A stretch of 64,000 nucleotides of DNA from Chondrosia reniformis (lineage: Eukaryota > Porifera > Demospongiae > Chondrillida > Chondrillidae): the NCBI GenBank assembly GCA_947172415.1, contig OX359199.1, positions 1,452,001 to 1,516,000 on the forward strand. Direction: 5' to 3'. Below are positions 1,772 through 64,000 of this stretch, in pieces. The notes beneath the pieces are model-generated. The model had not been told where the DNA came from. It ran no database searches and worked only from the letters and a program-made list of their open reading frames with translations. Position numbers and translations under genes: made by a program. The number at the start of each line of letters is the position of its first letter. The stretch's first letter is position 1.

Positions 1772-4700
1772 TCAGTTAAACCACTGTCCAGTTTGCATCC
1801 TCAGGAAAGTACCCTGCGCCAACTTTTCCATTTCCGCCAGCTCTTTAACTGCAGGTGCCAGTTGCTCCACATGACTCTTGTAGTTACCACCTGCGGATTA
1901 ACAAATCTGGAAATGAACACAATAGCAAACCTAAAACGTAACCAAACACTTGAAAGCACTTGTTACTGTTACTGTTTAACCAAAATATATGTAGAAAAGT
2001 GTCTTTCTACATACAAGTACTTTATGGAACTATTATTCACATAGCATAAAATGTGTCAATGAGTTTGGACTGGATCAGCATGTTGTGTATTGTATGCAAT
2101 CCCTTAAAAGGTATGTGCACATGACAAATAAGGAGTGGTGCTTGAACAAACATTTTCATTGGTTTGAATTGAGACCAAGTTGCCAGCTATTTCATTGCCC
2201 TTCACACAAAACTGACGAAAGCCACAGCATGTGGTCGAAATGTTAGTAATGATTTAGTAATGATTTAATGGTAAATTGTAAATCATTTGGTTATAATTGA
2301 ACAAATTATCAATACAAAACTGATTTATATACCTTTGGCGCTCCTCTTTTGTCCATAGATCACATTCCCATCAAATTCATTAACTGGTACCTTTATATCC
2401 CTTCCAGTCTGAGTGATTGTCTCCCCCAAGTGCTCCTCAATGTCGGCCAAGTACTACAGAGGAGGTGGAGAGGAGCTGAGGGGTGAGCACTAATGATAGG
2501 GGAATACCTTCCAGACACTATTGCAAGGGAGTACCCTCCAGATGCTCCTTATTCTACTAAAGGTATGCGGCGGAAGAACTGGATTACCTGTTTTTCATTG
2601 TACCAAATGGCACATCCACCCTGCTCCAGCAGTGTTGTGTTGTAGCAACCTTTTCCTCTGTTGGGACAGTTGCTATGATACCAAACCTTCTCGGGCACCT
2701 CAGACACCAAAGATATTGCCAATCCCATTCTAAAGGCATACATGAATATAAGTGAAATGATAATCAAACCACAAGTAGTTATAATCATTCTCAAACATCA
2801 TGAAGAGGGAAAAACATGTAAGAATCAGGGCAACTGGTTATGACCACCAGTGCTCTGTTACTGAACTACAATTGCCACAACAATGTTCCCTTCATATTTT
2901 CCTTCTTCTGCTAACTGCAAAGACTAATTAGTACAAAAACATTGTACAATGTATATGGAAATAAAAGTAAAACTAACAAACTGCGTATGAGAGGAAAGTG
3001 AATGTAATTGTAAGGTATAGTGAAACCACTGTATAGGAAGGGTTCTGCGGCTACAAATACACTTCTACAGGCTTTCAAGTAAGAGGATTACTTGTAGATT
3101 AGATGAGTGGTATACAGGATGGAGACTAAAAACACTCTATTCTGTGTACATATGTATGTCTACTTGGAATTGAAGCAAATTGAATTGAATCTATTTGTCC
3201 ATATAGACATGGCCCAGGAGGCAATCCTTGAAAAAGGCTCCCAGGGACATAGAGTGGTGATAAACTAGTGATTATGATACTTAGAAATTAAACAATTTGC
3301 ATGGATCTAAATACATTAAGAGATGATCATTACACCTGTACAGACTACGTACACACATACACAGGTGGGTAGCACAAGTGTACACTACACGTGTGCACTT
3401 TCATACCTGTCAGCCCTCCCCACTCTGCCAATTCTGTGGACGTAATTCTGTTTATCATCTGGTAAGGTGACATTGATGACTATAGTAAAATAGACAGACA
3501 GTTATGAGAGTGAACAACATGGACATGTTATCAACAACATTCAAATAAATCCAGTTTGAAGGCTAACCATTATGTTCAAATTTTCCAGCTATAGGGTAGT
3601 ATATACGAACTTGTGAATATTGGCGGATTTAAATTTGACAGTGTTGCAGCTCTAGTTTGTGACATCATCCAGTCAACAATGGCTGCTGCTTTGTCTGGTT
3701 ATGATAGTAGCCAGTGGTAACTTTGTTTTATGAGAATGTAAATATTGACCGATTTAAATTTGGCTGTTATCCACGAGACTGCCAAACTGTCAAATTAAAA
3801 TCCTCCCCAAATTTTCTGGCTATATGGTATACATGAGAGAGAGACTATTTCAGCAAAGGAAGATCTACAGACTGAAATGCTCTGGTATTGCTTTGCACTT
3901 CGTCTGTAAGTACATTTTCTAATCTGTCACATTTTGTCTAATATGTATTTGTTCACGGCTTACCAAATGGTATTCCTTGTACGTCTATACCTCTGGCAGC
4001 CACATCAGTACAGATGAGAAATCTGACATCTCCATCTTTGAATGCCTGCAGATTGGCCTTCCTCTCCTGAGGCCTCCTGTCACCGTGGAGACACACACAA
4101 GAGTATTTATTGACCATCCCCTTTCCTAATACAAAACAGGAAGACCTCTGGAAACTGACTACCCCTACAGGTAGAGCTGATGTACAGGTGGCTAATCTCA
4201 CCTCCTCCAAGCTTCAGAAGGTATTGCTCTACGTTATCACAGTCTAGTTTGGTGCGACAAAATATGATTGCCTGTGAAGAACAAGCAAAGATTCCACATT
4301 TGTGACTGCAGACTTTCACTATTACTGTTGCTATAGTTACAAACACAGATTTTCACTGTTACTGTTGCTATAGTTACAAACACAGACTTTCACTGTTACT
4401 GTTGCTATAGTTACAAACACAGATTTTCACTGTTACTGTTGCTATAGTTACAAACACAGACTTTCACTGTTACTGTTGCTATAGTTACAAACACAGACTT
4501 TCACTGTTACTGTTGCTATAGTTACAAAGTGCAGTATAAAAACTCAAGTCAAACAAACCTGATCCATTTTATGCTCATCAATAGCACGAACCAGATATTC
4601 CCCTTTGAGTGTCTTGACCGCCTCTGATAAGCACTCTGGAATATGCACACGGGATAGTGGTTTAAAACACTCTTATAAACACTAACTATCAGAACACTTT

Positions 4701-7700
4701 ACTGTGTTATGCAGGGGGAAAATGTGATATGCAGTGTTGTAATAGACCTCTAGACCTGTTGTAGTAAGTGTACATCAGATGAACGTACCTCTAGACCTGT
4801 TGTACTAAGCGTACATCAGATGAACGTACCTCTAGACCTGTTGTACTCTAAACGTACATCAGATGAACGTACCTCTAGACCTGTTGCCGGGTTTAAAGTG
4901 ATCCTTTTTGTGCATTCCATCAGTTTGCACATGTTGTCTCAAGTTGTGCCACAAGGTGTCTCCGACTGGATCAACCATACACACCTAAGAAATAAGGACC
5001 CATGGAAAAACAGATTACTATGTGCTACAATGCTGTACTTAATTAACATATAGTTACACTTTAATAGTGAAAATAAAGTTAACGGCACAAAACCTTTGCA
5101 AAGGATATGAAACATTACATTGGAATGGTTATCAGTAGCATTGGGTATCTTTTAGAAGGGTCCAAATAACCCAAGCTTTTGTATGAAAAATCTAATACAC
5201 TATTTTCCTACATGCTATGCCTATTCTGTAAAAAGCCTATAGGGGAACTAAACCTGAAGAGAGCTTTGGATGAAGATACAGGAGTCTTATTTTCTTTCTT
5301 CTTTTCCTCTCTCTCATCTTCTTCCCCACTGGGCCATGATGGTGAGACACGTTTTTATGTGATGAATTATAACTACCAACATCTCACCATATTATAGTTA
5401 ATGTAGTAACTGTATACATATGTACATGGAGTGGATGTGATGATGGTACTGTCAATGTTAAACAACTCACCACATGATGAACCGTGTCTGGTACACTGTC
5501 TTGTCCCTTCAGATCAATCCAGATTGGAAAGTGCATTATCCTATCCTACAAGTACAAGTACATGTATGTACATATGGGAGTCGTGCATGAGGAGTAACAT
5601 GTAAGACTACTACTACTGCAGGTATGGTGTAACACCTCCTGTGAGTCATGTTTTAGTATTAAGAATGTAAGCTATTGGTTGAAGAGACAACGTACTGCAA
5701 GCTTCTTCACCTCATGAGAATGGAGAGTTGCTGAACATACAACCAACTAGTACAGGAGATGAAACATAGAAAAGGTTAATAGACAATTTCACAATAGTAC
5801 CTGACTAGCCAAATACCATTTACTTAGTACTTCATTCAAATTAAGTAAATAGTCAAACACTATGTAATGTTCTATATTTGGAGGTCAGAGAGTGTGCATG
5901 TTCTACATTTGGAGGTCAGAGAGTGTGTATGTTCTATATTTGGAGGTCAGAGAGTGTGCATGTTTTACGTAGTTTGGAGGTCAGAGAGGGTACCTGAAGT
6001 CTCCTTCCTTCCGGCGATACCTTTGGTACTTTGCCGTATATCCGCTGGATCAGGTCTCCGTATCCACCAGAGAGGAGACCATCCTATAAAGGTATGTACA
6101 TGTGTATATTGCTGTCATATGGCTGATCATTGATATGACACCAAACCAGACACGGGAAGTCTTATCTTGGTTGAGTGGCAATCAATGAAAAAATTACAAA
6201 TCTAAACAAAGTATACCACACTGATGAGCTCTAAAATGGGCAAAATTTGTGTTTTCTTTTTCCCTCTTGGATGATTGGGAGTCGATCACTGTTTGCCATA
6301 TTAATAGGACCTCAGGTCTCCCGGCCAGCCGAGATAAGACTTTGGTCACTTGCAATTGATTGGTCAGGTATATGTATTGGCACATCTATTGTGCAATCAA
6401 GTATATAGCAGCTGCTAATTGTATCTCTTTTAGAACTCAGTTTAGACTATATCTGGTGATACTCTTATTAAAGTATTCAAAGGAATACATCATTGATAGG
6501 AGAGAGCTGATGTATATGTATACAAAACCAGATAAGGGATATTTTCAATGTAAATACTTACTGCTTCATCTAATATGAAAAACATTATCTATGGAAAAGA
6601 AAAAAAAAGAAGAAACCAGAAATGTTAATGGTAAGGTGATACCTAGTAGACTATATACACTATACATATATATTTACGTACATTAGAAAGGTTTAGACTG
6701 TTTGTATTGATGAGATCCTCCAACCTTCCAGGAGTACCTGTCACAATATCTACCTGTATGTACGTACATGTTATTAGGATGTATATACTACAGTATATTG
6801 GACTCTAACTATTAAAACACACTACAATAATCAAACCACTAATAATAATGTAATGAGGCAATATGTCTTTTATTGAGGTAACATTTCTTCACCTTCCTAT
6901 GTACTCGCAATACAAAATTACATTTGGTATATACTGTAGGTGCAGTATTAGGATGGCAAGAGGTTATTTCAAACTAGTTTTTTATATGTATATATACCTA
7001 CATACTCAAAAATATAATAGAGTTTCAATTTAACTGTAAAGGCTAACAGTTGTGGTTGTATTATCAGTCTAACATCACATGTACGTATTTGTCACATCTC
7101 TTACCCCTTTTTGCAACTGTCTTATCTGCTCCTTAGCACTCTCTCCTCCCATCATCAGACAAGCGCTGCACAACAGTTTAAAAGGGAAGAATGCACACAG
7201 AAAGGAAATGTCAGTTATGAAGTATCACTCTAGACAGACATACAGTAGAGGATTACATTTTGGGAGAGATGTTGAGATATGGGATGAATGTTGGTATAAT
7301 TATATACTAAGCTTCAATGTACTTAATAAAAAATGTCTTATAATTGTTACATTCAGTACAGTGTGGATTGCTATCAGATCAGTGAATATTGAATGTGATG
7401 TGTACATACTTACTTCACTTTCGGATCAGGTAAATGAGCCTTAAATTTGACAATATTATCGTGTGTCTAATTGATTAAAGGAAAAAAGGAAAAAGAAAGC
7501 ATATTCCTGCAAAATACATAACAATTACATGACATAAATGGATTTGTTCATTTCAGTGATAATCATACATATATGTACAGCACTTGTGATACATATCAAT
7601 CCACACACCTGCTGAGCTAGCTCTCTTGAGGGCTGCAGTAGAGAGAAGAATTGAACAGTAAAGCGTTCTTCAAAAAGGAGTGAAACAATGCTAATGTTAG

Positions 7701-10700
7701 CTTATATAGTAGGTTATCAAACACACTATTAGAAAGGTGGATACTTTAGCACGTTGTGTACTGAATGTCCAAAGGCAGAGTACATCTTCTTAGAGTACAT
7801 ATATATACAGTGTACTGAGGGCAGCCATTTTATTGTAGCTACTGTATGTACCACCAAACCACAGTCAAATAAATATAAACCTATGTACCTGGGATTGGAA
7901 TCATTACTATGGTTACAGGTATACATTTCTGTGTAATAATAATGCATGCATTGTGTATAAATTGTGTTGTAACTTCATTTTCTCTTTGTAAGGTTGTACT
8001 CTTAAGGGATCATAAATGAAGGACGTTTGGAAGGACAATATTATATAACCAATGATCAAGCCTTGTTAACTAGGGAATTAGCAAAATGAGTAATCATGCT
8101 CTAAGCTGCATTACGTACGTACACACATAGCTGCTAACCTCAATTATCAGAGCTGATGGGAGCCTAGTTCCTCCTCTTGGTGCTACATAAATATAAAAAC
8201 ATGAAGAACTTGTCAAAGATACAACCACAATGACAGACTACAATAAGCTTGTATACCAGATAGCTACTACCATGTACATACGTTCGTATGTTTATTACTT
8301 AAGAGCCGTACCCTGTACATGTACGTATATTAGCAATGGTAATATTGTGATTAAACTTATACACATTTACTTAGTGCAAACTTACTATATGCTACTTTTC
8401 TCGTGGGCTGTACTAAGTTCTTGGCTTTGCAAAATGCAGTATAACCAGCCTAAACAGTACATGTGTGAATAAGTACACTTATACAGTATGCATTATTCAA
8501 CTGGTGCAGTGACACTGTAAGAGGTATATAATGGGAGTTGTAAATAAAAGTATAAAAGAGGGTACCAGTACACGTACGTACCGTAATTTGGGAAATTATC
8601 GTGTTGAAATATTTTCATGGCCTAAACCTGCATTTCTTGATTCCCACAAACAAATAAACAAGCAAAAAGTTTGTGCAAGAAATTTTTGTGGTTTACGCCA
8701 ACCACGAAAAAATATTTTAAAATTTCCTGAATTACGTATGACTTAAAATTGAGACACATACAGTATAGAGAGTATTGTAATATAATCAAGATGGAGTCAC
8801 TATAAACTGGGTAATGGGAGGGAATATCTCTTGGGTCACTTGTACTTACCGGAACTTTACATTTAAAAGGTTCATTTCCAAAATTAAACTTCATTTCAGC
8901 ATTCTAATTAATTAAATTAGAAAAAGGAAAACTTAACAATATTACATGTGTTAAGAAAATAAAACAAAATGGCTAAAACAATAATTAGCTAATTTCCTTA
9001 GCAAATGGTACATGTGGAAAAAATGCAGGAAAAAAGCCTATCAAAGTTAAGTAGAAGAAATCCTTATCACATCAGGTTGAGCCCAATGTACTGACCTTAA
9101 GAGTAACAGCTGCAAAGAATGGTTCACCTGCCAAATCGTCTGAAATATAAAAGGCATCTCCAAGAAAGATACCTACAATAAATAACAGAGTATACAAGAT
9201 ACTATATACAACGCATGGACAATTTGCATTATGTTTGAATCATAAACTCACCATTCTTGGTAAAAGATATGACATTCTCATTCAAATCAATGAGACATCC
9301 GATGACATCATTCTTGCCAAATGCCTATAAGGGAATATACCATGCACCAACCAGGGTCACTGATGAAGGGTGGTATTCACAGAAACAGCTGCCTAGCCCA
9401 GTGGAGCAGAAGAATAAAGAGAAGACTCCTGTATCCTCATATATAGCTTATACTGTGGGTTTAGTTTCCGATAGGCCTTTTACTGTGGTATACAAAAAAG
9501 GTGTTTTACATTACTCGCAACCTTACAGTTGTTCCATGACAAAGAGATGGACCTTAGAACAGCTTCCAACTCACCTCTCCATAGTCATCAAACTGGCTCT
9601 GGTTTGACTTCTTTCCAGTACCTCCAAAGCCAAATCCAAACCTGTCCTTACCTGAGAAGAGATGCACAAGACAAGTCTTTAACAGACAACAGACACGCCC
9701 AAAAGCAGTTTAGTGTCCATTCCCCCCCAAGCTGACCTAGTTCTAGAGTGGCAGCAGGCGTGGCCCACCCAACTCTACACAGTCCCTCATCAGTCACCTC
9801 CGCCTCGTAGTAGTACTGTCCTCTGGTGACACCGAGAGTGGATCTACAGCCGTGCCATGACTTGTGATCTCGAGACTGACACAGCACACCATCGGGACTT
9901 ATAGCTACAACAGAGATACACACTTTACAGGTCACATTACATATATAAGTCATACATACCATCGGGACTTATAGCTACAGCAGATATACACAATTTACAG
10001 GTCACATTATACAATCAAGATCAGACATTGGTCACTTGGTTGATCAGGTATAATATCTCTCAATGATTAATTATTCCTATCACATCATGCCCCTGCGCAG
10101 CTGGCTTAAACCTTTGGATAAATGGGCCTATTTACAACGGAGAGTCTACTTATCAGAGGGTGCAATTAACTCCTTTACATTGTTACACATTCTTTAATTC
10201 ATTTCTTGTATAGCTCAGAAGCATGTGAGTCAAGTGGTTACATGATAAATACATACTTACCTAAAGCATCATTCCTGTCGTTCACATTCATTACAAGTTT
10301 TTCAGGTTCATCTACAAATGACAGTTTTAGTTAGTGTAGATCATGTAGTACCAGTTTATATGTCATGTGAGTCAACTGACCAGATTTTCCAGTTTTTTTT
10401 CCCATTTTCCCTTCTTTTCTGTCTCTTATAGTTTCGTACACCACTTGTATCACTGGAAGACTAAAGGCCTATATCACACAACACAGACATCAGATACAAC
10501 TAACAGCAGTACCGCACACATATAGACTACATGAATAAGAATAGCATGTACACATGTCTGCTGCATAGCAACTGCCAGCAAATTATTCAGTTCATTGTAG
10601 ACAATATAGCCACAGCAGAGATACACGTTTTATAAGTTACATTACATACTCCCAGGGTCACTGATGAAGGGTGGGATTCCCAGAAACAGCTGTCTGGCCC

Positions 10701-11253
10701 AGTAGAGAAGGAGAAAACTCTTGTATCCTCATCCAAAGCTCTCACTAGGTTTACTTCCCTATATGCCATATATTCTAAGGTAGATGTAGCATGTTTGAGA
10801 AATGGTGTGTTAGATTATTCATTGATATTAGCCAACGGTTGATATGCACACAAGTACACACAACTCACTCCAGTCTTGCCACTTCCCGTCTCTGCAGCCT
10901 ATAAGGATTTAAGGAGAAGGAGACAGGCTTAGCTAATACCACTTTGATTAACAGCTGTTTGAAGTAGAGAGCCCTATAGATCGAATTACCATCAACACAT
11001 CACCTCCTCCAAGTATTAAGGGGACAGCCTCCGCTTGTACGTCAGTGGGGAGACTGTAAAGGAAAGGGACAGACGAATGAAATAGGTTCAACTGCTGTCA
11101 CACAAGCTACAGAACTTACAGCCAATCAATTTCTTCAATAGCCTGAACTATTTCAGGTAACACTCCAAGCTCTAATATACAAAATGGAATAAATTGTGAC
11201 TATTCATAAGTTAGCTAACACTCGTTTCATGACTAACCTGAAAATGCAGTCAT
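1772..11253 (-). CDS. DDX1: ATP-dependent RNA helicase DDX1 (copy A, intact)
   Basis: DEAD-box RNA helicase with a SPRY insert. The family works in RNA processing and tRNA ligation, and in mammals DDX1 can sense dsRNA. I joined 29 exons with consistent phases: 11253-11238, 11171-11120, 11053-10990, 10898-10869, 10468-10381, 10311-10261, 9904-9737, 9651-9575, 9324-9252, 9172-9096, 8903-8850, 8449-8386, 8182-8139, 7632-7609, 7466-7414, 7165-7105, 6753-6682, 6588-6562, 6083-5994, 5746-5696, 5545-5471, 4984-4873, 4635-4559, 4271-4202, 4125-3964, 3479-3407, 2729-2588, 2453-2333, 1890-1772. The product is 728 aa; human DDX1 has 740. Motifs: [10 protein letters not shown] 45-54, SPRY about 101-232, PSREL 287-291, GTPGRL in exon 17, DEAD 363-366, SAT 400-402, AIIFCRT 501-507, TDVAARGID 563-571, HRIGRVGR 592-599. 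The start (MTAFSELG) matches the family N-terminus. This is the only complete DDX1 in the window. Confidence 0.95.
4311..4528. repeat. 37-bp minisatellite, DDX1 copy A intron 23
   Basis: About six tandem units of 37 bp (key words CACTGTTACTGTTGCTATAG and TTACAAACACA). The array lies between exon 24 (4271-4202) and exon 23 (4635-4559). Copy B carries a shorter array at the same place, and copy C has lost the region. Confidence 0.9.
4746..4880. repeat. 41-43-bp minisatellite carrying the exon 22 splice donor
   Basis: Tandem units contain ACCTCTAGACCTGTTG and CATCAGATGAACGT. On the minus strand each unit carries AGAG followed by GTACGT, the same sequence as the exon 22 end and donor at 4873/4872. 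Extra donor-like sites lie near 4829 and 4788, and a weaker one near 4746. The unit appears to have formed by duplicating the exon-intron border. Confidence 0.85.
5220..5340. repeat. Member of a dispersed intronic repeat family
   Basis: A block of about 100-150 bp with words AGAGCTTTGGATGAAGATAC, CCACTGGGCCA and, reversed, GGGTCACTGATGAAGGGTGG. Members: 1165-1270, 5220-5340, 9350-9500, 10655-10770, 29270-29360, 32185-32285, 36305-36440, 37388-37510, 40160-40260, 59690-59800, 61525-61625. Most lie in DDX1 introns, in both orientations. Probably a MITE or SINE; no clear ends seen. Confidence 0.7.
5870..5990. repeat. 31-bp minisatellite at exon 19 donor (short allele)
   Basis: About four units built on TTTGGAGGTCAGAGAG. 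The last unit overlaps the donor of exon 19 (exon end 5994). The same array has about three units in copy B and about twelve in copy C. Confidence 0.85.
8582..8736. mobile_element. Small MITE-like inverted repeat in DDX1 intron 11
   Basis: The ends CGTAATTTGGGAAATT and AATTTCCTGAATTACG are imperfect inverted repeats of about 35-40 bp around a short centre. The same element lies at 35538-35692 in copy B, so it was there before the duplication. The plus-strand open frame through it is not supported as a gene. Confidence 0.55.
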
Positions 11254-11802
11254 TTCGTGCACTACACAGAGATTAACGATAATTAGATAGCGAGTAGTAC
11301 CCTACTCTAGAACATACTATTTCGAGGGTCACGCCTCCTAGACAAACGCTCTTCCGTTTTTGGATCGCCTTCGAGTTCATCGTGAGTGACATAATCTAGT
11401 TGCCGGTCTGATAATCTGCACACCTACAGTTGAATAAGGTCTACATCTCTCTCTGTACATGTTCTAGATAACTGTCATACTGTAATATTATTCCACTGCT
11501 CGGCTATATCCACTGTTCATCTACATAGGGTGATGAATGATATAAATATTGTAGGTGCCCTATAGGTGCTGTAGCTACTAGCCAACTACTCAAGTGTCAT
11601 ATTCCTCTTAAAGTGCTAAAGTGTCACACATAGTAAGTACTAAATAGTAGTCTAAGTATATTGTCATGTAAGACCTTTATTTTATCAGGTAATTAATCCT
11701 ATACCTTTATGTAAATAGAAATCCTATAGTTGTATCTATATTTATGTAATAATGATAATCTCCTTGACCTCCACGTACAGGTGTGTATTGTAGAACATTG
11801 CA
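11254..11802. promoter_or_regulatory. Divergent promoter between DDX1 copy A and CARD gene 1
   Basis: A 549-bp gap separates the DDX1 start codon (minus) from the CARD gene 1 start codon (plus). Blocks are kept in the two other copies of this gap: GAGGGTCACGCCTC near 11324, a stretch around GCTTTTGGATCG, and TCCTTGACCTCCACGTACAG just before the CARD first exon. The last block ends in AG and may be a 5' UTR splice acceptor. I see no clear TATA box. Confidence 0.6.
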
Positions 11803-39335: not shown

Positions 39336-40755
39336 GCAGTGGATCTACAGCCGTGCCACGACTTGTGCTCTTGAGACTGACACAGCACACCATCGGGACT
39401 TATAGCTACAGCAGAGATACACACTTTACAGGTCATATTACAAATATAAGCCATACATACCATCAGGACTTATAGCTACAGGAGAGATACACACTTTACA
39501 GGTCACATTATACAATCAAGATCAGACATTGGTCACTTGGTTAGTCAGGTATAATATCTCCAAGTGATTAATTATTCCTATCACATCATACCCTTTGCAC
39601 CTGGCTTAAACCTTTGGATAAATGGGTCTATTTACAATCAAGTCTACTTGTCAGAGAGTGCAATTAACTCCTTTTTCAATCCATACATTGTTACACATTC
39701 TTTCATTCATTTCTTGTACAGCTCAGAAGCATGTGAGTCAAGTGGTTACATGATAAATACATACTTACCTAAAGCATCATTCCTGTCGTTCACATTCATT
39801 ACAAGCTTTTCAGGTTCATCTACAAATGACAGTTTTAGTTAGTGTAGATCATGTAGTACCAGTTTATATGTCATGTGAGTCAACTGACCTGATTTTCCAC
39901 TTCTTTTTCCCATTTTCCCTTCTTTTCTGTCTCTTATAGTTTCGTACACCACTTGTATCACCGGAAGACTAAAGGCCTATATCACACAACACAGACATCA
40001 GATGCAACCAACAGCAGTACCACACACATATAGACTACATGAATAAGAATAGCATGTACACATGTCTGCTGCATAGCAACTGTCAGCAAATCATTCAGTT
40101 TCTTGTAGACAATATAGCCACAGCAGAGATGCACATTTTATAAGTCACATTACATACTCCCAGGATCACTGATGAAGGGTGGAATTCCCAGAAACAGCTG
40201 TCTGGCCCAGTGGAGAAGAGATGGAGGATATCCTCGTCCAAAGCTCTCACTAGGTTTACTTCCCTATATGCCATATATTCTAAAGTAGATGTAGCATGTT
40301 GAAATGGTGTGTTAGATTATTCATTGATATTAGCCAACGGTTGATATGCACACAAGTACACACAACTCACTCCAGTCTTGCCACTTCCCGTCTCTGCAGC
40401 CTATAAGGATTTAAGGAGAAGGAGACAGGCTTAGCTAATACCACTTTGATTAACTGCTGTTTGAAGTAGAGAGACCTATAGATCGAATTACTATCAACAC
40501 GTCACCTCCTCCAAGTATTAAGGGGACAGCCTCCGCTTGTACGTCAGTGGGGAGACTGTACAGGAAAGGGACAGACGAATGAAATAGGTTCAACTGCTGT
40601 CACATAAGCTACAAAACTTACAGCCAATCAATTTCTTCAATAGCCTGAACTATTTCAGGTAACACTCCAAGCTCTAATATACAAAATGGAATAAATTGTG
40701 ACTATTTATAAGCTAGCTAACACTCGTTTCATGACTAACCTGAAAATGCAGTCAT
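39336..40755 (-). pseudogene. DDX1: DDX1 5' fragment (exons 1-6 and part of 7)
   Basis: The ATG is at 40755. Exons 1 to 6 follow with the same spacing as copy A, including the Walker A exon near 40396-40367 and exon 5 near 39980-39893. Exon 7 is cut after about 65 nt, near 39340. It would encode only about 120 residues of DDX1, with motif I and the start of SPRY. It arose with the duplicated divergent promoter. Not a helicase. Confidence 0.85.
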
Positions 40756-41147
40756 TTCGCGCACTACACAGAGATTAAACGGTAATTATAGCGAGTAGTA
40801 CCCTACAATAGATACTATTTGAGGGTCACGCCTCTTAGACACACCCTACATACACGTGCCTATAGCTACTTCGCTTTTGGATCGCCCTTTCAGTTCATCG
40901 TGAGTGACATAATCTACACACTCTTTCCTACAGCTGATCATGAATCATATAACTGTCATACTGTACTAGCCTGTACTATTTCACTGCTCATCTATAGGCG
41001 ATGGGAAATAAGTACTGTAGCTTGTGACACTTTAGCACTTTAAGACACACCTGTACGTGGAGGTCAAGGAGATTATCATTGTGTAAATATAGTTACAACT
41101 ATAGGATTTCTATTTAAATCCTCAATCCTGTATTGTAGACCATTGCA
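40756..41147. promoter_or_regulatory. Third copy of the divergent promoter, upstream of CARD gene 2
   Basis: 392 bp between the DDX1 fragment start and the CARD gene 2 start codon. GAGGGTCACGCCTC is kept. The block TGTACGTGGAGGTCAAGGAG at about 41052 is the reverse of the CARD-side block in the other two copies, so part of this promoter has been inverted. Confidence 0.55.
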
Positions 41148-53100: not shown

Positions 53101-56100
53101 GATTTTATTAAGTTTGCTGTGAGTAATAGAAGTATGTCTGCTCCAGTTAGAATAAATATCTCCAAATAGAGACAAACAGTTTGTCTGTGTAACATGGTCA
53201 ACAATTTTAGTGAAGAAGAGTGACAAGAATCTATATTTTTCAAAGTTTACCCACCTTATGCATGGAAAATTTTGTCAGACAAAATTTTCGCAAATGACGT
53301 CACATTCACGAACATTTATTTTACAAACACTTTATATATATATAATTCTTGAAAATTTCATCTTGTGAACATTTCCACGCATACAGTATCAGTGTACGTT
53401 CATCTCCTATATCAAATATCCGTTTATAGGAGTTTCATTCTATTACTAAACACACTAGGTTTAAACTAACATGTGTTTTCATTCACACAATTGTTTGGTA
53501 CCATGGATTGTGTATATTTACACAGATTAAAAAGGAAGATATTGAATATGAGACTGGAAAAATACATGTTTTGGAAGATAATGTTAAACTAGAATCGTAT
53601 CCTCTATTTCTCACTCTTGTACCAAATATTGGGTCTAAATCCAAAGATCCACCTTATGAAAATGTGTCTCTACAAGGAATTGACACTAGCATCACCTTTC
53701 ACTGTGATCTACATAAAGGTATATAGTTTTGTAATGTCAAATTGGTTCATCTTATAAAATAGTGTAAGTTATATTGAATTTGATGTAGGTTCATCCTTCA
53801 AGGAAGGATCAGCAGCCAAATTAGATCCAGAAGTTAAGGAACAGCAAGGTACATTTGAAGACCATAAAATGCATTTTAAGGCCTTACATACGTACCTCAC
53901 TTTGACTAGTATCAATTAATCTGTAAACTATTGCTCCATACATATATGCACCGGTAGGTAGGTAATTAAGTGTGATGATCTCAATGTCTAGATGTCGTGT
54001 TAGCTGATATGGCAGAAGTACATTTAAGGTGCTATGCACTATACATTACAATACAGTGACTAATACTTAATACTTATGCTTGATTGCAGCTATCCTAGGA
54101 GTCCGAGCGTTTTGTAACTGCATTATAAGTACGTATATTATTTGGCTATTAGTATGTCCATATGGGTGTGCTTAGGCTAAATATTGATACATACATACAT
54201 AGGGAATGTTCACATTTCCATGTAACAAGCACCATGCACAAGTCAGGGGAGGTCAATTCAGTTCATTAAGTTCCATCTGTAGTCTCTCTTAAAATATCAC
54301 CACTAGTGAGTCAGTCAGGGCGCTTATCCTGGCTCTCCAATTATCAGCTCTGATATCCTCCAGCCACTGTCAGGCAACTTTGCAAAAGCCAGGGCTCGTT
54401 GCAATTTGTCAGACCAAAGCATGAAAGGTCTGGCTCGTGGTCTCTTGCCCTTGACCATCTGGGAGAACATTTGTAATGTAATTATATGCTTTCGTGGCTA
54501 TGTGATGCTATAGAGACTCATTGTAATTTTGAGTACACTTAATAGTAGTAAATTTTAAGCTAATTATAATGCAAAAGGAACACTTAATCAGAACCTTTCA
54601 ACCATATTGGCCTTCAACAGCTGATAGTCTCACCATAATCTCTGTTTGTTTGTTTGTGTGTTTGTTAGGGGGTTGGCATTTTATTTTTAGCCTTCACTTG
54701 CAGGTTCCACCATATACTTTTGTCCTTCGCTGTATTATAGATGAACACACCATTTTTTGCACTTATACGGAAGTATGTAGTTGTCATTAAATAGGATGTC
54801 ACACAGGTATTAGCAGATCGATTATGTATAATAGTTTAATGCAATAAGCGATAAAATAAGTGTAACACTAGAAATGCATTGTCAGTGCTTGAAGGAAGGA
54901 GTATACTGTTGCTGTCCTGGGGGTTCTCCTCTTGTTTAAATAATACAAAGGAGATCGATGCTCTGTTTATGTAATGTGGGAATGTTGACTTGAAGAATGA
55001 AAGATGTTGAGACAGTTTAACTGAGATGTATTTATGCTTAGTAAGAATTAGTATCAACTAATGAAGACATGGCCAAAACATTCTGATTAATATATAGTGT
55101 TCCTATACTGCTACTTTAGAATCAGCTTGAAATCTACAGCTATAAAATATATAGCATGTATATACTGAAAATGTTAGGCCTTGCCAGTTGCCTGGATTGT
55201 TTTAAATTTTGTGAATCAATTGTAACTTAAGGCTTTATATTACGAAAAATATATATAAAACTACAATGAAGTACTTCACAGTGCAAGTTACAAATGCTCA
55301 GACTCCTAGTATAGCTACAATCAAGATTAAATAATAAAAAGTGCAAGTTTTGGTTGCTGCACTGTATAGCATAAGGCCATAAAATGTACTCCTACATGCT
55401 ACCCCAGCCATTAAACTTGACATTGTGATGTTAATTAAATGTTGTCACACTTATAAAGTAGACTACTAACTTAAAGCATATCAGTTACATTTTCACACCT
55501 ATTATACTGTTGACCCTATATTTTGCTTTAATTCCACTAAGAGCCAGTCATTTTTATGGGGTCCCATTTTTATAACTATAGTAGATTTGATGTACACGTC
55601 TTGCAATTGAGAGGGAGCTATACGTATATGTACGTATGTAATTAGACCAATTTCAACTGCATTTAAACACATGCATGGTTACTGGTTTGCCATTTTGTAA
55701 CTTGCATACAAGGGGTTTTACAATAAGGCTTCAGACTTTTGTGCCTCCTTTCATGTAGCCTTACAGTAACTGGTAAACTAAAAAGACTAAGAACTAATTC
55801 AGCGTGTTACTACGTATAGCTGATTATAATATTGTAAAATTTATAATCATTCTACTGCAAAATGAGATACGGTACAGGTCAAAAGAAACTTGGCGATTTC
55901 CGCAAGGGTTTGTACGGGAATCCGCAAATTTTCTGCGTACTGCTGTACAGCCATTTGCGGTTTGCCATATCAGCATCTGCGGGTATCGTCAGCGATGTTT
56001 GTAAACAAACGAACAATACGTATGTACGTAGGGTGTCGATAGGGCAGCCATGCAATCTATGAAGAAAATGATACGTACGTATGTTGAGCATTTCGATCTT

Positions 56101-59100
56101 TACCTACGTATAAGTATCGTCAGAATTAATAATACGAAAGTATGTAGACAACAATAAAATAATAGAGTATTCAAAACAGTTTGCTTTGTTGTATAGATTC
56201 TTTCAATTGCTATAATTTTTAAAATATTGGATGCTGACCCTTTACTTTGGAGATGGAGAGACACAATTCTTTCTCTTTGATACTTAGTTAATGGCATAGT
56301 ATATTACTGGAAACTCATACGTATTATTCATTATCATTATTATTCATATTATTTATGTACGTACGTAAATCGCCAATCAAAACTCTACGATAGAACACTG
56401 AGGTCCGCCGAAAGAATCTGTGAAAATCCTCGGAATTTGTATAGATTCGCAAATTAACACCTATATTCTGAGGATTTTCACAGATTCCTTCGGCGGACCT
56501 CAGTGTTTTATTGTAGAGTTTTGATTGGCAAATTAAATAATATGAGTATCCTGTAATATCCTACATGCATTTGGACGTTATGAATCATTGCGATTAGAAG
56601 AAGCGATTAGGAATGAGATGGCAAGCAAAATTATGGTAGAATGGATCGAAGGAAGGGCAGCTGGCAAAAGATTGTATGTAACAAGAAACAGTATCAAAGA
56701 AGGAACTGTAGCTCCTGGAAAAACTGCTAGCGTGATTTGGGGAAAGTCAAGACTACGAATTGTAATCGTCATTATATACCATGTACGCATACGTATACGT
56801 ACGTACGTATACGCAAATTTCCGCACTTGCAGCTTTCCTCAGTTGCTCTCTCAAAAACCCTCAGACAGCTGCGTGGCCAACTGCAGACGGTGGCATTGTC
56901 CAACAGCGGAAAAATGCAAAAATCGCCAAGTTTCTTTTGACCTGTACCGTAGATAGATAGAATAGTCACCTATTTTTGTGGTAGTAACCTTTTTGTATTG
57001 ACATGAATGTCAAATGAGACTGGAAATAGAAACTTAAAAGATAATGTTGAGACAAAGATATATCCTCCCTATCTTAAACTTCGACTTGTACGAAATCGTG
57101 GGTCAACATCTGAAGACCCACCATATGAAAATGTGTCCCTACAAGGAATTGATCATAGCATCTCTTTTTATATTGAACTATCTAGTATTCAGAAAGGTAT
57201 GTTTTATGTACGTACATGTTTCAGTTGTGTCACAGGTTTACAACAGCTAGGCCTACTTTACAAAGGCTTTCTCAGTAACAGAAATATCCTACATGTAACA
57301 AGTCTGTCAAATGACTGTTTACTAACTGGTCTTCATTATCAAAATGTTACAAATTGACATACATTTAAGCTAACTATTTTGTAACTTTACAGTAAGGTAT
57401 CAGCCTTTCATGTCTTTGTGTGCAACTTACAAAATGGTCTACAAGCCAGTAGCTATACATACATGTGTTTGAATGCAGTCAAACTAAACTATAGACTATG
57501 TATACAGTTACATTTTATACTGGGCCTGTTTTTCCTAAAAAAGGGCCAATCTTTTTAAGGGGTCTCAGTTAATAGCCATAGCAGATTTGATGCATATACC
57601 TTTCAATTGACAGGGAGTTACATATAGATTAACTGCATTCAAACATGTGCAGGGTTATAGGCTATAGAAACTTGCACACAAGAAGTCATTAAGAATTTAG
57701 CTTTCATGCCTTCTTTCATGTTTATTAGAAAATATATACAATTTAACTAAAAAGAATAAGAACTGTATAATCCAGCTTTTTACTAGCTGATAATTGGATA
57801 CAATGTATAAGTTTTCAAAGTCATTCTATACCTTTTTTGTACTGAACACTGAAAACAAATTATATACACTTGTATACAACATATTACATTAAGATATACA
57901 TCACTCAGAATTGTTTAGATATGATTTGTGTTTACACAGTAATTGAAAAAAGCCCACAAGAAATTATCAACTTCTTGGACCAACAGAATGAGAAATACAT
58001 AAAGTTCTGTAATGCCAAAGCTGTGTGCACTGATCTGGAATGTGAACATGTTATAAGTGCAGGACAAAGACAACAACTGGGGTCGTCCCAAAGTGTAGCT
58101 GAGTCCAATTGTCTCTTTTATCAGTTTCTACGCGACGACCCTGTTCCAGAGACACTTAAAGGAGCTGCTAAGGTTCTTAAGAATGCCTCAGGAACTACTA
58201 ACACAAACAAGTTATTTGCAACATCAATTGAGACATTCTTGCAAAGCTGTTAATGTTTGGTCTGTCTTAAATATATCACCATATTGTTTCTAACTCATTT
58301 GCAAATATTTTTTTTTGTTTTATAAACACAAATCTAAAAACTACATTTCCCTTGCATTTTCACAGTAATTTTTTATAAACTAAGCATCACAAATATTTAC
58401 TATATGAATAGGTATACAGTATACATTAGGTACGTATATGTTCTATATACTGTAAAAGATGATGAAATTACTACAAAATTTAAAAGGTATACAAGTTTTT
58501 CAAAACTGTAAAATTAGTTCCTCTTAAAATGTACACTTGTTGAATGAACATAGGTTCAACCTTCAAGGATGGTCAAGGAGCTAAAGCAAATCCAAGTAAA
58601 GTTCAGCAAGGTATTATACGTAGCTTATATACTCTGTTGCCGGGGCAACTGCAGGTGGTTGAATTCCATAACCATTAGACGTTTCGACCCCGAGGGTCTT
58701 CTTCAATCAGTGACTGAAGTTGCTTAAAGTTTGTAGGTGTTCTCCTTTTATAGACATTGGTTCCCACTCAAAACACTCAAAAAGTTTGAAAGATGAATCT
58801 TTTAAAAGACATAATACGTATGCTGTACACAGTTAGAAGAAATCCTTATATTCTATTATGTACATAGTAAGAGAATACTTATCCCCAGGTACATATTAAT
58901 AGAATTTCATTGCATGTACTTTTAAACTTTTAATCTTAATAATCTTGTTAATGAAGCCTGATAAATATATTCTATTTTGTTAGTTACCAAACCTAGAGAA
59001 GTCCAGGCCTTTTTAGAGGATATCAGAGAAGTTATGCTCAATTACTGTGATGTCAGAGAGATTTCTAACGAACTCAGAAAAGATAACATAATTACATTTT

Positions 59101-59297
59101 CTCAGTATGAGACGTTGAAAGCTTCTATCCCTCAGGATTTGGCCATTCAGGCTCTGTATGGCATCCTTTATGGTGATCCAAGTGAGTGGAAACTAAAGGC
59201 TACAGCAAAAGCCTTGAAACAGTGTACATACCACGACAACAACCAAAAGCTGGCAGACAAAATCAAAAAATTTCTATCTCGTCAAAGCTACAACTAG
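41148..59297 (+). CDS. Multi-CARD, ZU5 and death-fold protein, gene 2
   Basis: Paralogue of gene 1 with an expanded CARD array. Exons in frame: 41148-41226, 41359-41550, 42196-42387, 43009-43200, 43798-43989, 45943-46134, 46934-47128, 47564-47731, 48297-48494, 48815-48937, 49003-49101, 49178-49339, 51019-51212, 51649-51685, 51757-51866, 51946-52015, 52157-52710, 52777-52908, 53526-53718, 53789-53848. It then ends either with 57940-58253 (1215 aa) or with 58554-58610 plus 58984-59297 (1234 aa). Six full CARD repeats plus two divergent ones, against four plus two in gene 1. The ZU5 exon is 52157-52710 (GDRPVESDITHLEVPEGA). The exon 51019-51212 motif is single here and double in gene 1. Exon 8 has a normal GTAAGG donor. 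Role inferred as for gene 1. Exon joins are predictions. Confidence 0.82.
42388..44557 (+). repeat. Recent 1.6-kb duplication of a CARD exon plus intron
   Basis: The intron block 42388-42955 and the block 43990-44557 are almost identical over about 570 bp, at 1602-bp spacing. The identity is far higher than between other CARD introns. The CARD exons just upstream (42196-42387 and 43798-43989) share their C-terminal halves exactly at the protein level but differ near their N-termini. This marks a very recent duplication or gene conversion. Confidence 0.85.
44834..45314. mobile_element. pogo/Tigger-like non-autonomous element (gene 2)
   Basis: Same element and position as 18930-19443, with a short deletion near the left end. 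Ends CAGTAGAACGTCGATTA and, reversed, CAGTAGGAAGTCAATTA. Confidence 0.7.
46172..46408. mobile_element. 237-bp MITE with TTG target duplication
   Basis: Inverted ends CACAGGATCAAATGTCAGG / CCTGACATTTGATCCTGTG extend to arms of about 75-80 bp around a short centre. TTG flanks both sides (46169-46171, 46409-46411). The paralogous intron in gene 1 at about 20286 has a single TTG and no element. A 3-bp duplication suggests PIF/Harbinger, but the terminal bases are not diagnostic. Confidence 0.85.
49571..50188. mobile_element. piggyBac-like non-autonomous element, 618 bp
   Basis: Flanked by TTAA on both sides (49567-49570, 50189-50192). Inverted ends CCCTTTATGCGCGAG and, reversed, CCCTTTATGCACGAG. 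The matching gene 1 intron reads GCATTAAAGTTTT at about 23295, a single TTAA with no element. TTAA duplication and CCC ends define piggyBac-type elements. No transposase is present. Confidence 0.9.
53849..55869. other. Long gene 2 intron with degraded repeats
   Basis: No supported exon. At 54480-54290 the minus strand gives a short degraded frame (KGKRPRARPFMLWSDKLQ) that may be a retroelement tail; this is weak. The part 55380-55860 is a diverged direct copy of 57390-57830, about 2 kb apart, so the 3' part of gene 2 has an internal duplication. Confidence 0.5.
55870..56949. mobile_element. Tc1/mariner-like element remnant with nested MITE
   Basis: Perfect inverted ends of about 30 bp (CGGTACAGGTCAAAAGAAAC, continuing into CTTGGCGATTT), flanked by TA on both sides (55868-55869, 56950-56951). 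On the minus strand, 56297-56100 starts MPLTKYQRERIVSLHLQSKG, like the helix-turn-helix start of Tc1-type transposases, and soon loses similarity. The rest of the enzyme is missing. A second inverted-repeat element lies inside (56372-56529). Confidence 0.75.
56372..56529. mobile_element. MITE nested in the Tc1-like element
   Basis: Arms GCCAATCAAAACTCTAC and CTGAGGTCCGCCGAA at the left return as reverse complements at the right, around a centre of about 30 nt. Close to a full hairpin. Confidence 0.75.
57007..57196 (+). pseudogene. Orphan copy of the ZU5-following exon
   Basis: The protein reading (PPYLKLRL..., EDPPYENVSLQGID) is a diverged copy of gene 2 exon 53526-53718, with a usable donor at 57197. 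The 5' part and acceptor are gone, and the Tc1-like element ends about 60 bp upstream. It is probably not spliced into gene 2. Confidence 0.7.
57940..58253 (+). CDS. Divergent terminal death-fold exon of gene 2 (alternative end)
   Basis: The acceptor TTTACACAG is at 57931-57939 and the exon starts in phase 1, so it joins 53848 in frame and ends in its own stop TAA at 58251-58253. The ~104 residues match the other terminal exon in layout (PQEIINFLDQQNEKY..., then CTDLECEHVISAGQRQQL, then a short last helix) but share few residues. It looks like a diverged CARD/death-fold domain. No AATAAA is seen soon after the stop. Gene 1 has no counterpart. Confidence 0.7.
58554..59297 (+). CDS. Canonical terminal exons of gene 2 (alternative end)
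   Basis: Exon 58554-58610 (57 nt, phase 1 to 1) and exon 58984-59297, stop TAG, are close copies of gene 1 exons 27834-27890 and 28561-28883. The domain reads EVQAFLEDIREVMLNYCDV, then YETLKASIPQDLA. Poly(A) signal AATAAA at 59335-59340. They lie downstream of another in-frame terminal exon, so use needs skipping of 57940-58253. Confidence 0.75.
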
Positions 59298-60886
59298 CGA
59301 GACATGTATAAAATAAAAATACTATGGTTATGTAAATAAATGTGAAATGGTGCAAAATGTACATAGGTATACATATATATGTGTGCTTGCTTACAATATT
59401 CTCCATCTGTAGGACTGTCATGTCTATATACGTATATGCCACAATAAGTCTCAGAAATCTGTTCTTTAAGACTTAATTATTTTTAATACTTTTTAGCTTT
59501 TGTATCAGTAAACATTAATCATTTTAATGCTTAATCAATTCATTCATTTGATATAGTTATTAATCTATGGATCCACCTATGCATAACGATTTATTATTCA
59601 CCTTTTTATACTTTCATGTACAATCCAAGAATAGTAAGTCACTAGGTATTCTTGATCAACTGAAGTGTTTAGTTTTCATTTTTTGGAATTCTCAGAAACA
59701 GCTAACTGGCCAGACTCTTAATTGTACTCTTAATTGTATCCTCATCCAAAACTCTCACTATATGTTTAGTTCTTATAGGCCTTTTACTGCAGAATGAATG
59801 GAGTATGCATGTAGCTAGGAAAATGATTACTCCTGATAAAAATGAACTTACATGCAGCTCTTTAACTGCAGGTGCCAGTTGCTCCACATGACTCCTGTAG
59901 TTACCACCTGCGGATTAACAAATCTGGAAATGAACACAATAACAAACCTAAAACTTAACCAAACACTTGAAAGCACTTGTTACTGTTACTGTTTAACCAA
60001 ATATATGTAGAGAAGTGTCTTTCTACATACAAGTACTTTATGGAACTATTATTGACATAGCACAAATTGTGTCAACGAGTTTGGACCGGATCGGCTTCTT
60101 GTGTATTGTATGCTATTCCTTAAAAGGTATGTGCACATGACAAATAAGGAGTGGCGCTTGAACAAACATTAGCATTGGTTTAAATTGAGACCAAGTTGCC
60201 AGCTATTTCATTGCCCTTCACACAAAACTGACGAAAGCCACAGCATGTGGTCGAAATGTCAGTAATGATTTAGTAATGATTTAATGGTGAATTGTAAATC
60301 ATTCGGTTGTAATCAAACAAATTATCAATACAAAACTGATTTATATACCTTTGGTGCTCCTCTTTTGTCCATAGATCACATTCCCATCAAATTCATTAAC
60401 TGGTACCTTTATATCCCTTCCAGTCTGAGTGATTGTCTCCCCAAGTGCTCCTCAATGTCGGCCAAGTACTACAGGGGAGGTGGAGAGGAGCTGAGTAGTG
60501 AGCACTAATGATAGGGGAATACCCTCCAGACACTATTGTAAGGGAGTACCCTCCAAATGCTCCATATTATACTAAAGGTATGCGGAAGAACTGGATTACC
60601 TGTTTTTCATTGTACCAAATGGCACATCCACCCTGCTCCAGCAGTGTTATGTTGTAGCAACCTTTAGTCAGTATAAACATTCAAGTTAAACAAACCTGAT
60701 CCATCTTATGCTCATCAATAGCACGAACCAGATATTCCCCTTTGAGCATCTTGACTGCCTCTGATAAGCACTCTGGAATATGCACACGGGGATAGTGGTT
60801 TAAAACACTCTTATAAACACTAACTATCAGAACACTTTACTGTGTTATGCAGGGGGAAAATGAGATATGCAGTGTTGTAATGGACC

Positions 60887-61075
60887 TCTAGACCTCTTGT
60901 ACACTAAACGTACATCAGATGAACGTACCTCTAGACCTGTTGTACACTAAGTGTACATCAGATGAACATACCTCTAGACCTGTTGTACACTAAACGTACA
61001 TCAGATGAATGTACCTTTAGACCTGTTGTACTAAGTATACATCAGATGAACGTACCTCTAGACCTGTTGCCGGGT
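60887..61075. repeat. Donor-carrying 41-bp minisatellite, DDX1 copy C
   Basis: Same unit as 4746-4880, here about five copies. One carries a changed site (ACCTTTAGACC). Confidence 0.85.
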
Positions 61076-62169
61076 TTGAAGTGATCCTTTTTGTGCATTC
61101 CATCAGTTTGCACATGTTGTCTCAAGTTGTGCCACAAGGTGTCTCCGACTGGATCAACCATACACACCTAAGAGATAAGGACCCATGGAAAAACAGATTA
61201 CCATGTGCTACAATGCTGTACTTAATTAACATATACACTTTAATAGTGAAAATGAAGTTAACGGCACAAAACCTTTGCAATGCTATGAAACATTACATTT
61301 GAATGGTTTGGCATGACAATTCCCACATAAAAGTGGAACTTGAGGGCGATAAAACACTCAAATACTCACAATTAAGATACAAATGTGCTAGAAGGCCTTT
61401 TCAGAGAATAGCGCTTGTTATCAGTAACATTGGGTATCGTCTAGAAGGGTCCAAATAACCCAAGCTTTTGTATGAAAAATCTAATACACCATTTTCCTAC
61501 ATGCTATGCCTATTCTGTAAAAAGCCTATAGGGGAACTAAACCTGAAGAGAGCTTTGGATGAAGATACAGGAGTCTTTTCTTTCTTCTTTTCCTCTCTTT
61601 CATCTTCTTCCCCACTGGCCCATGATGGTGAGACACGTTTTTATGTGATGAAATATAACTACCAACATCTCACCATATTATAGTTAATGTAGTAACTGTA
61701 TACATATGTACATGGAGTGGATGTGATGATGGTACTGTCAATGTTAAACAACACACCACATGATGAACCGTGTCTGGTACACTGTCTTGTCCCTTCAGAT
61801 CAATCCAGATTGGAAAGTGCATTATCCTATCCTACAAGTACAAGTACATGTATGTACATATGGGAGTCGTGCATGAGGAGTAACATGTAAGACTACCACT
61901 ACTGCAGGTATGGTGTAACACCTCCTGTGAGTCGTGTTTTAGTATTAAGAATGTAAGCTATTGGTTGAAGAGATAACGTACTGCAAGCTTCTTCACTTCA
62001 TGAGAATGGAGAGTTGCTGAACAGACAACCAACTAGTACAGGAGATGAAAGATAAAGTTTACTAGAAAAGGTTAATAGACAATTTCACAATTGTACCTGA
62101 CTAGCCAAATACCATTTACTTAGTACTTCATTCAAATTAAGTAAATAGTCAAACACTATGTAATGTTGT

Positions 62170-62525
62170 AGTTTGGAGGTCAGAGAGTGTGCATGTTCTA
62201 TATTTGGAGGTCAGAGAGTGTGCATGTTCTATATTTGGAGGTCAGAGAGTGTGCATGTTCTATATTTGGAGGTCAGAGAGTGTGCATGTTCTATATTTGG
62301 AGGTCAGAGAGTGTGCATGTTCTATATTTGGAGGTCAGAGAGTGTGCATGTTCTATATTTGGAGGTCAGAGAGTGTGCATGTTCTATATTTGGAGGTCAG
62401 AGAGTGTGCATGTTCTACATTTGGAGGTCAGAGAGTGTGCATGTTCTATATTTGGAGGTCAGAGAGTGTGCATGTTCTATATTTGGAGATCAGAGAGTGT
62501 GCATGTTGTAGTTTGGAGGTCAGAG
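62170..62525. repeat. 31-bp minisatellite, expanded to about 12 units (copy C)
   Basis: Nearly perfect 31-bp units (TTTGGAGGTCAGAGAGTGTG plus CATGTTCTATA). The last unit meets the exon 19 donor. The unit has no stop on the plus strand and a length not divisible by three, so all three plus frames stay open. The apparent 112-153-residue proteins are an artefact. Confidence 0.92.
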
Positions 62526-64000
62526 AGGGTACCTGAAGTCTCCTTCCTTCTGGCGATACCTTTGGTACTTTGCCATATATCCGCTGGATCAGGTCTCCGT
62601 ATCCACCAGAGAGGAGACCATCCTATAAAGGTATGTACATGTGTATAGTGCAGTCATATGGCTGATCATTGATATGACACCAAACCAGACACTTATCTTG
62701 GTTGAGTGGCAATCAATGAAAAAATTACAAATCTAAACAAACTGTACCACACTGATGAGCTCTAAAATGGGCAAAATTTGTGTTTTCTTTTCCCCTCTTG
62801 GATGATTCGGAGTCGATCACTGTTTGCCATATTAATAGGACCTCAGGTCTCCCGGCCAGCCGAGATAAGACTTTGGTCACTTGCAATTGATTGGTCAGGT
62901 ATATGTATTGGCACATCTATTGTGCAATCAAGTATATAGCAGCTGCTAATTGTATCTCTTTTAGAACTCAGTTTAGACTATATCTGGTGATACTCTTATT
63001 AAAGTATTCAAAGGAATACATCATTGATAGGAGAGAGCTGATGTATATGTATACAAAACCAGATAAGGGATATTTTCAATGTAAATACTTACTGCTTCAT
63101 CTAATATGAAAAACATTATCTATGGAAAAGGAAAAAAAGAAAAAAAAACAGAAATGTTAATGGTAAGGTTACACCTTGTAGATTACATATGTGTATATTT
63201 ACGTACGTACATTAGAAAGGTTTAGACTGTTTGTATTGATGAGATCCTCCAACCTTCCAGGAGTACCTGTCACAATATCTACCTGTATGTACGTACATGT
63301 TAATAGGATGTATATACTACAGTATATTGGACTCTAACTATTAAAACACACTACAATAATCAAACCACTAATAATAATGTAATGAGGCAATATGTCTTTT
63401 ATTGAGGTGACATTTCTTCACCTTCCTATGTACTCGCAATACTAAATTACATTTGGTATATACTGTAGGTGCAGTATTAGGATGGCAAGAGGTTATTTCA
63501 AACTAGTTTTTTATATGTATATATACCTACATACTCAAAAATATAATAGAGTTTCAATTTAACTGTAAAGGCTAACAGTTGTGGTTGTATTATCAGTCTA
63601 ATATCACATGTATTTGTCACATCTCTTACCCCTTTTTGCAACTGTTTTATCTGCTCCTTAGCGCTCTCTCCTCCCATCATCAGACAAGCGCTGCACAACA
63701 GTTTAAAGGGAAGAATGCACGCAGGAAGGACATGTCAGTTATGAAGTATCACTCTAGACAGACATACAGTAGAGGATTACATTTTGAGAGAGATGTTGAG
63801 ATATGGGATGAATGTTGGTATAATTATATACTAAGCTTCAATGTACTTAATAAAAAATGTCTTATAATTGTTACATTCAATACAGTGTGGATTGCTATCA
63901 GATCAGTGAATATTGAATGTGGTGTGTACATACTTACTTCACTTTTGGATCAGGTAAATGAGCCTTAAATTTGACAATATTATCGTGTGTCTAATTGATT

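Follow-up and report, generated by a model that had tools for sequence, protein, structure and literature searches.

The stretch of DNA considered here, hereafter the window, consists of 64,000 nucleotides of the plus strand of the genome of the sponge Chondrosia reniformis (C11:1452001-1516000), in which exon 1 of a gene for the RNA helicase DDX1 stands head-to-head with exon 1 of a gene for CARD-like modules and a ZU5 domain at three loci. The junction between the two genes recurs elsewhere in the genome (G000; 117.4 Mb in 15 contigs, a single assembly), and from the state of the two partners in these copies we propose that an essential DDX1 gene has probably been trapped beside an expanding birth-and-death family of CARD/ZU5 genes and copied along with it. 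It is noted that the genome searches score the best candidates only, and thus all copy numbers given below are lower bounds.

Head-to-head junctions

At the three loci of the window, the minus-strand start codons of DDX1 are found at 11253, 37996 and 40755, and the first exons of the CARD-like/ZU5 gene, on the plus strand, begin at 11803, 38453 and 41148. The intergenic regions between the start codons, to which no strand is assigned, are located at 11254-11802 (549 bp), 37997-38452 (456 bp) and 40756-41147 (392 bp), and the three promoter copies that had been delimited in the first-pass annotation match these start codons to the base. The spacing of the junctions is 26.7 kb from the first to the second and 2.8 kb from the second to the third, so that the tandem unit of about 27-29 kb that had been described holds for the first-to-second and first-to-third junctions but not for the second-to-third one.

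With the third junction (40740-41230 of the window) as the query of a DNA search of the genome, 47 matching pieces were obtained, which group into at least 18 junctions in three clusters on two chromosomes, with nine at C11:1.355-1.562 Mb (the cluster of the window), five at C8:2.607-2.703 Mb and four at C11:2.162-2.272 Mb. All of the 18 were read, and each of them has retained the start codon of DDX1 and a recognisable exon 1 of the CARD gene, so that the earlier description of co-duplicated head-to-head pairs with a short intergenic region in common is borne out. Exon 1 of DDX1, 16 bases long, shows 0-2 mismatches across the junctions; the context of its donor is altered in three copies (L049, L050 and L051), and the donor of the CARD-gene exon 1 is away from its usual place in one (L042). 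The gap between the start codons is about 384-549 bp in 16 of the 18 units (accurate within a few bases for L039 and L051) and 1063 and 1630 bp in the other two. The DDX1-proximal part of the intergenic region aligns in 17 of the copies and is interrupted in L050.

On the CARD-gene side of the intergenic region, a segment of about 80 bp (about 41042-41121 in the window) has in four of the 18 junctions, the third window junction being one of them, the reverse of the orientation seen in the other 14. The four copies form one group in the junction trees of both sides, with support of 97 on the CARD side and 61 on the DDX1 side, and therefore a single inversion that was then spread by duplication would be the simplest account. 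From the short distance and the conservation, both genes would be predicted to be transcribed from one promoter. Note, however, that in the sponge Amphimedon genes often stand close together head-to-head: according to an excerpt of the report (PMC4773876), start sites within 1 kb of each other occur for 11,379 of its 40,122 genes. Adjacency alone is therefore weak evidence.

DDX1 and the state of its copies

The identification of the helicase as DDX1, already made in the first-pass annotation, is certain from its sequence. The window exons match human DDX1 (8tbx) with E 1.1e-157, the next relative being DDX3X with E 3.4e-38 (phmmer), and DDX1 is the best solved relative over both the DEAD part and the helicase C part. 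The SPRY insert after motif I matches the DDX1 SPRY structure 4xw3 with E 2.6e-37, and the exon order agrees; the Pfam SPRY match is partial and below the cut-off.

The first DDX1 of the window (1775-11253, minus strand) is the only complete one there. In the spliced alignment, which was guided first by a human DDX1 protein and then by the window's own protein, it has 29 coding exons and 730 amino acids, with a stop codon right behind and with no internal stop or frameshift; the human DDX1 guide has 740 residues. The second copy (29500-37996, minus strand) is damaged, with the frame shifted by 1 base in exon 9 (36209-36279) and the last two exons missing. The third (39320-40755, minus strand) is truncated to the first exons and is broken in the exon from 39405 down. 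A further copy is present with its 3' part (59795-64000, minus strand); it has lost exons of the later helicase motifs and leaves the window toward the junction at C11:1.520 Mb. In addition, a relic of the SPRY exon is found at 1504-1700 on the minus strand. A minisatellite with 31-bp units is also seen in DDX1, with 11.5 units at 62172-62527, 3.8 at 5867-5988 and 2.8 at 32822-32911, the repeat number varying between the paralogues. The earlier statement that the same pair is repeated is thus valid for the junctions and not for the pairs, which are unequal: DDX1 is complete in the first pair alone, and the CARD gene of the second pair (38453-38805, plus strand) consists of exon 1 and one broken module.

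In the genome, the helicase-C exon of DDX1 has 12 matches at 96-100% identity, all inside the three clusters, with other helicases at no more than 55%, and the SPRY exon has 28 matches, many of them partial and six with a stop. The bodies of ten DDX1 copies were modelled in full; two further window copies are truncated or deleted, and six of the 18 units lie outside the modelling. The splice sites of the modelled copies are GT/AG except for a GC donor at exon 24 that is common to all ten. Two of the ten are intact, namely the first copy of the window and the copy at C11:1355k, and eight are broken or doubtful. Besides the second window copy, the latter include C11:1409k, where codon 604 is a stop that use of a later donor would avoid; C8:2664k, where the exon-27 donor is lost; C11:1562k, with a stop at 646; C8:2703k, with stops at 81 and 646 (in a model without the last two exons, which fall outside the sequence examined); C11:1377k, where exons 2, 12, 13 and 22 are lost or altered; and C11:2246k and 2162k, with several lesions each. 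The stop at codon 646 is common to two copies on different chromosomes, C11:1562k and C8:2703k, and this suggests that a unit already broken was copied or that sequence was exchanged.

The substitutions in these copies were compared by counting the private changes, a rough substitute for codon modelling, with exons below 90% identity, mostly misaligned over indels, left out. In the six copies of the window cluster there are 14 nonsynonymous to 23 synonymous private changes, giving a ratio of 0.17, whereas in the four satellite copies (those of C8 and of the second C11 cluster) there are 42.5 to 13.5, giving a ratio of 0.88 (Fisher p 5e-4). The unfiltered pools give the same direction, 0.16 versus 0.97 with Fisher 3e-6, where the satellites are inflated by the exons misaligned over indels. 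The deleted window copy (59.8-63.3 kb) is outside these pools; if it is included, the ratio of the window cluster becomes 0.16 with the filter and 0.25 without. Thus, the constraint on DDX1 is strict in the window cluster and has largely been lifted in the satellites, and the partner, as described below, is fast-evolving with open frames.

The CARD-like/ZU5 partner

The partner gene of the first junction, called gene A here, begins on the plus strand with exon 1 at 11803-11881, which starts with MASEKLDIRCPC, has a phase-1 donor and is recognisable at the 18 junctions. It is followed by five CARD-like modules (12599-12790, 17332-17523, 18104-18295, 20062-20253 and 21842-22036), each being one phase 1-1 exon, then by an open ZU5 exon (26127-26714) and by a C-terminal CARD-like domain (28563-28877). 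The partner gene of the third junction, gene B, also on the plus strand, has exon 1 at 41148-41226 (read at the junction), seven modules (41359-41550, 42196-42387, 43009-43200, 43798-43989, 45943-46134, 46934-47128 and 48297-48494) and an open ZU5 exon at 52150-52725, to which the ZU5 exon of gene A is 84% identical. A second C-terminal CARD-like domain lies in the gene B region at 57945-58247; it has no Pfam match on its own and was compared jointly with that of gene A.

Several further observations concern these genes. The peptide of exon 1 is cysteine-rich (CPC...CSPQCKH) and conserved in most of the 18 copies, and it might serve as a metal binder. Some downstream exons of gene B appear to be present more than once at its end (53430-59827), where two exons are candidates for the C-terminal one. 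Between modules 1 and 2 of gene A, transposon-like open frames are located at 13816-16416 on the minus strand, one of them with DUF4371 (Pfam E 4e-15). No Rfam family is found in the window at the gathering scores.

The ZU5 domain that had been read in the partner is confirmed, and the assignment is good on the basis of the profile match: the ZU5 exon of gene B has a Pfam E of 1.1e-4 and 22.9 bits, above the gathering score of 21, and in the genome search other members of the family are over the cut-off, among them the gene A exon at C11:1478259. The modules and the C-terminal domain are CARD-like with moderate confidence. Pfam gives nothing above the cut-off for either, and of the 14 modules tested none is called CARD, the best rows being unrelated families such as U3_assoc_6 in four of the 14 (best E 0.0057). 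For the C-terminal domain at 28563-28877 alone, Pfam CARD has E 0.14, below the cut-off, and an unrelated family scores better at 0.0072. Profile searches of the PDB with the modules, the ZU5 exon and the C-terminal domain gave no believable relative. In profile comparison, by contrast, the modules (a shallow profile of 14 sequences) match 24 CARDs of the same genome with E 6.8e-5 and a probability of 64%, aligned to the later columns of the CARD profile (25-76 out of 82), as compared with E 0.29 against 20 Death domains and E 0.18 for the control of ZU5 against CARD. The C-terminal domain, with a likewise shallow profile of two sequences, matches the same CARDs with E 5.3e-6 and a probability of 86% over 73 columns, versus E 0.2 against Death. 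The identity of the modules and of the C-terminal domain as Death domains was thus rejected. It should be noted that the CARD and Death profiles resemble each other (E 3.6e-4) and that the modules hardly match the C-terminal domain (E 0.013, probability 3%); both points count against the CARD call, which therefore stays moderate. The earlier notion of a multi-CARD partner is accordingly favoured by profile comparison and not by Pfam.

The module exons are about 192 bases long and encode one module of about 63 residues each; those examined have phase 1 at both ends and are therefore freely duplicable. There are 123 module matches in the genome, 122 of which are inside the three clusters; 119 of the 123 are without stops and four have a stop. 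The matches are present in all 18 units, from 1 to 14 per unit, and a ZU5 exon stands ahead of the next junction in 16 of the 18. For the ZU5 exon, 46 matches are found in the genome, among which 26 are full-length at at least 83% identity and every one of the 26 is open, 19 in the clusters and seven elsewhere (C2, C7 and C10); the other 20 matches are either fragments or distantly related. Of the seven dispersed paralogues, three (C2:1340104, 1422532 and 1830719) have, unlike the members in the clusters, a Death-domain match about 3 kb downstream; inside the three clusters there is no Death-domain match among the 142 listed (the best 150 of 220 candidates scored).

One might ask whether these copies arise from the assembly, with haplotypes or repeats being mis-joined as tandem copies, as the likeness of the copies (about 84-97%) and the truncation of several of them could imply. 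We regard this as very improbable, because the synonymous divergence of DDX1 among the copies is 0.04-0.14, the copies lie in three clusters on two chromosomes, and the module numbers and truncations differ from unit to unit.

For the ZU5 exon, 153 pairs among 18 copies, the distant C9 copy not included, give a median pairwise dN/dS of 0.56, and the private-change ratios are 0.48 in nine window-cluster copies, 1.04 in four satellite copies and 0.51 in five dispersed copies. The A-type modules give a pooled ratio of 0.60 (8 modules).

Origin of the linkage and comparison with known systems

With most of the examined DDX1 copies broken and the key exon of the partner readable, the two genes have the look of neighbours that were copied together, and not of a pair shown to work together. 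In the mechanism that we propose, repeated segmental duplication around the junction would have generated the units observed in the three clusters. The CARD/ZU5 gene, with its open and fast-evolving ZU5 exons and its duplicable modules, would probably drive the expansion. DDX1 would be a passenger, as may be indicated by the broken copies and the near-neutral satellites, with at least two intact copies in the window cluster; the junction itself would have been retained because the promoter sits there. As judged from their domains, the CARD/ZU5 proteins are most likely scaffolds for death-fold assembly of the PIDD/CARD8 type, acting in stress or immune signalling.

A related possibility, compatible with DDX1 being carried along, is that the coupling lies at the level of the promoter, i.e., the DDX1 side would hold a constitutive promoter that drives the CARD gene, and the DDX1 coding sequence beyond the first exons would be dispensable in the extra copies. 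This is a real possibility to which we give somewhat less than even weight. It is consistent with the retention of the junction in all 18 units as DDX1 bodies break, with the third window unit, which is a CARD/ZU5 locus having the first DDX1 exons only, and with the DDX1-proximal part being alignable in all copies except L050, which is interrupted there. However, the copies may not be old enough for dispensable sequence to have been lost.

By contrast, it was proposed in the first-pass annotation that the pair is kept together as a sensor helicase and its adaptor. In such a co-selected pair, a bidirectional promoter would co-express an RNA-sensing DDX1 and a CARD scaffold, and it would have been favourable to duplicate the unit as a whole. 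This is in accord with the retained DDX1 start at every junction, with the strong constraint on DDX1 in the window cluster, with the confinement of all module matches except one to the DDX1-linked clusters, and with the role of DDX1 in the sensing of double-stranded RNA (dsRNA) in mouse dendritic cells, as given in an excerpt of PMC8875258. The intact DDX1 copies, however, are two in ten, the private changes of the satellite copies are near neutral (0.88, as against 0.17 in the window cluster), and the ZU5 exons, 26 of 26, are open, including paralogues away from DDX1 on C2, C7 and C10. Moreover, the mammalian DDX1-DDX21-DHX36 pathway signals, according to the same excerpt, through TRIF and independently of RIG-I and MDA5, and therefore the analogy drawn earlier between dsRNA sensing by DDX1 and relay by CARDs is a loose one. 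We thus consider the co-selected sensor-adaptor pair unlikely, and nothing found in this analysis requires it. Still more doubtful, in our view, is a stronger form in which several window-cluster DDX1 copies work, their dose being coupled through the two-way promoter to the CARD-array family, each unit delivering a helicase together with a matching scaffold and the orientation of the 80-bp segment shifting the balance between the two directions.

Returning to DDX1 as a co-copied passenger, we note that several points weigh against it. The comparison is unequal, DDX1 being judged as a whole gene and the CARD gene by single exons. In gene A, a splice donor at about 20933 (20915-20950), at the end of a conserved exon, is altered where gene B has GTAAG, and therefore the CARD/ZU5 genes may be damaged too; ZU5 fragments with stops are also present at C2:7.053 Mb and C6:3.279 Mb. 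For DDX1 itself, one of the six units outside the modelling, at C8:2.619 Mb, has SPRY and helicase-C exons of 100% identity behind it and could be intact. The pairwise dN/dS of DDX1 is 0.07-0.14 among the six window-cluster copies, even the broken ones, and therefore either the function of several of them lasted until recent times or conversion keeps the copies alike. Among the four satellite copies it is 0.34-0.64 (filtered), which is below neutral, as would be expected if the decay is recent. Finally, the satellite ZU5 ratio is also near 1, with few changes (19:5), and alone gives no sign of selection, so that in the satellites it is the open frames and not the ratio that bear the argument.

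What makes the locus of wider interest is that the first exon of a normally conserved helicase is found next to one and the same neighbour in at least 18 places, and that a multi-CARD-like/ZU5 family expandable from duplicable exons is present in a compact animal genome. Moreover, the 18 paralogous two-way intergenic regions, four of them with the segment reversed, provide a natural test set for the function of divergent promoters and for distinguishing neighbours that are co-selected from those that are carried along.

The DDX1-CARD/ZU5 linkage is not mentioned in the titles or abstract openings of the open-licence literature among the matches listed, and thus the comparison with known systems is made partner by partner. 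The sponge DDX1 is like human DDX1 (8tbx and 4xw3) in the order of an N-terminal DEAD part, the SPRY insert, helicase C and the DDX1-type C-terminal region; it is unlike it in being confined to amplified clusters in which few of the fully modelled copies are intact. The partner resembles the ZU5-UPA death-fold proteins (PIDD, UNC5 and the FIIND of CARD8/NLRP1) in having ZU5 followed by a C-terminal death-fold domain, CARD-like as in CARD8, and differs from them in the amino-terminal array of CARD-like modules. In FIIND and PIDD, the end of ZU5 is where an excerpt of PMC3210808 places the motif for autoproteolysis, HF/S or SF/S. This motif is absent from the sponge ZU5 exon: HFS or SFS occurs in none of the 18 close ZU5 frames, all of which have GHCT, the HCT being, in an alignment by eye, at the presumed equivalent place; in the distant C9 frame SFS is present, upstream of the domain. 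UPA has no Pfam match in the exons after ZU5 that were tried.

NACHT-ZU5 proteins have been reported in sponges and other early animals, according to an excerpt of PMC12909245, and are alike, as far as that excerpt goes, in that, in an early animal, ZU5 belongs to an immune-type family that has expanded; they are unlike in that no NACHT match is found in the window frames scanned and in the link to DDX1 seen here. The RIG-I-like receptors also differ from the present system, where the CARDs and the helicase are in separate genes on opposite strands. A likeness in arrangement is to the bidirectional promoters of Amphimedon, as they are described in the excerpt cited above, in that the head-to-head genes are within 1 kb of each other (here, the start codons in 16 of the 18 units), with the difference that here the junction itself exists in at least 18 copies and carries a segment of about 80 bp in two orientations.

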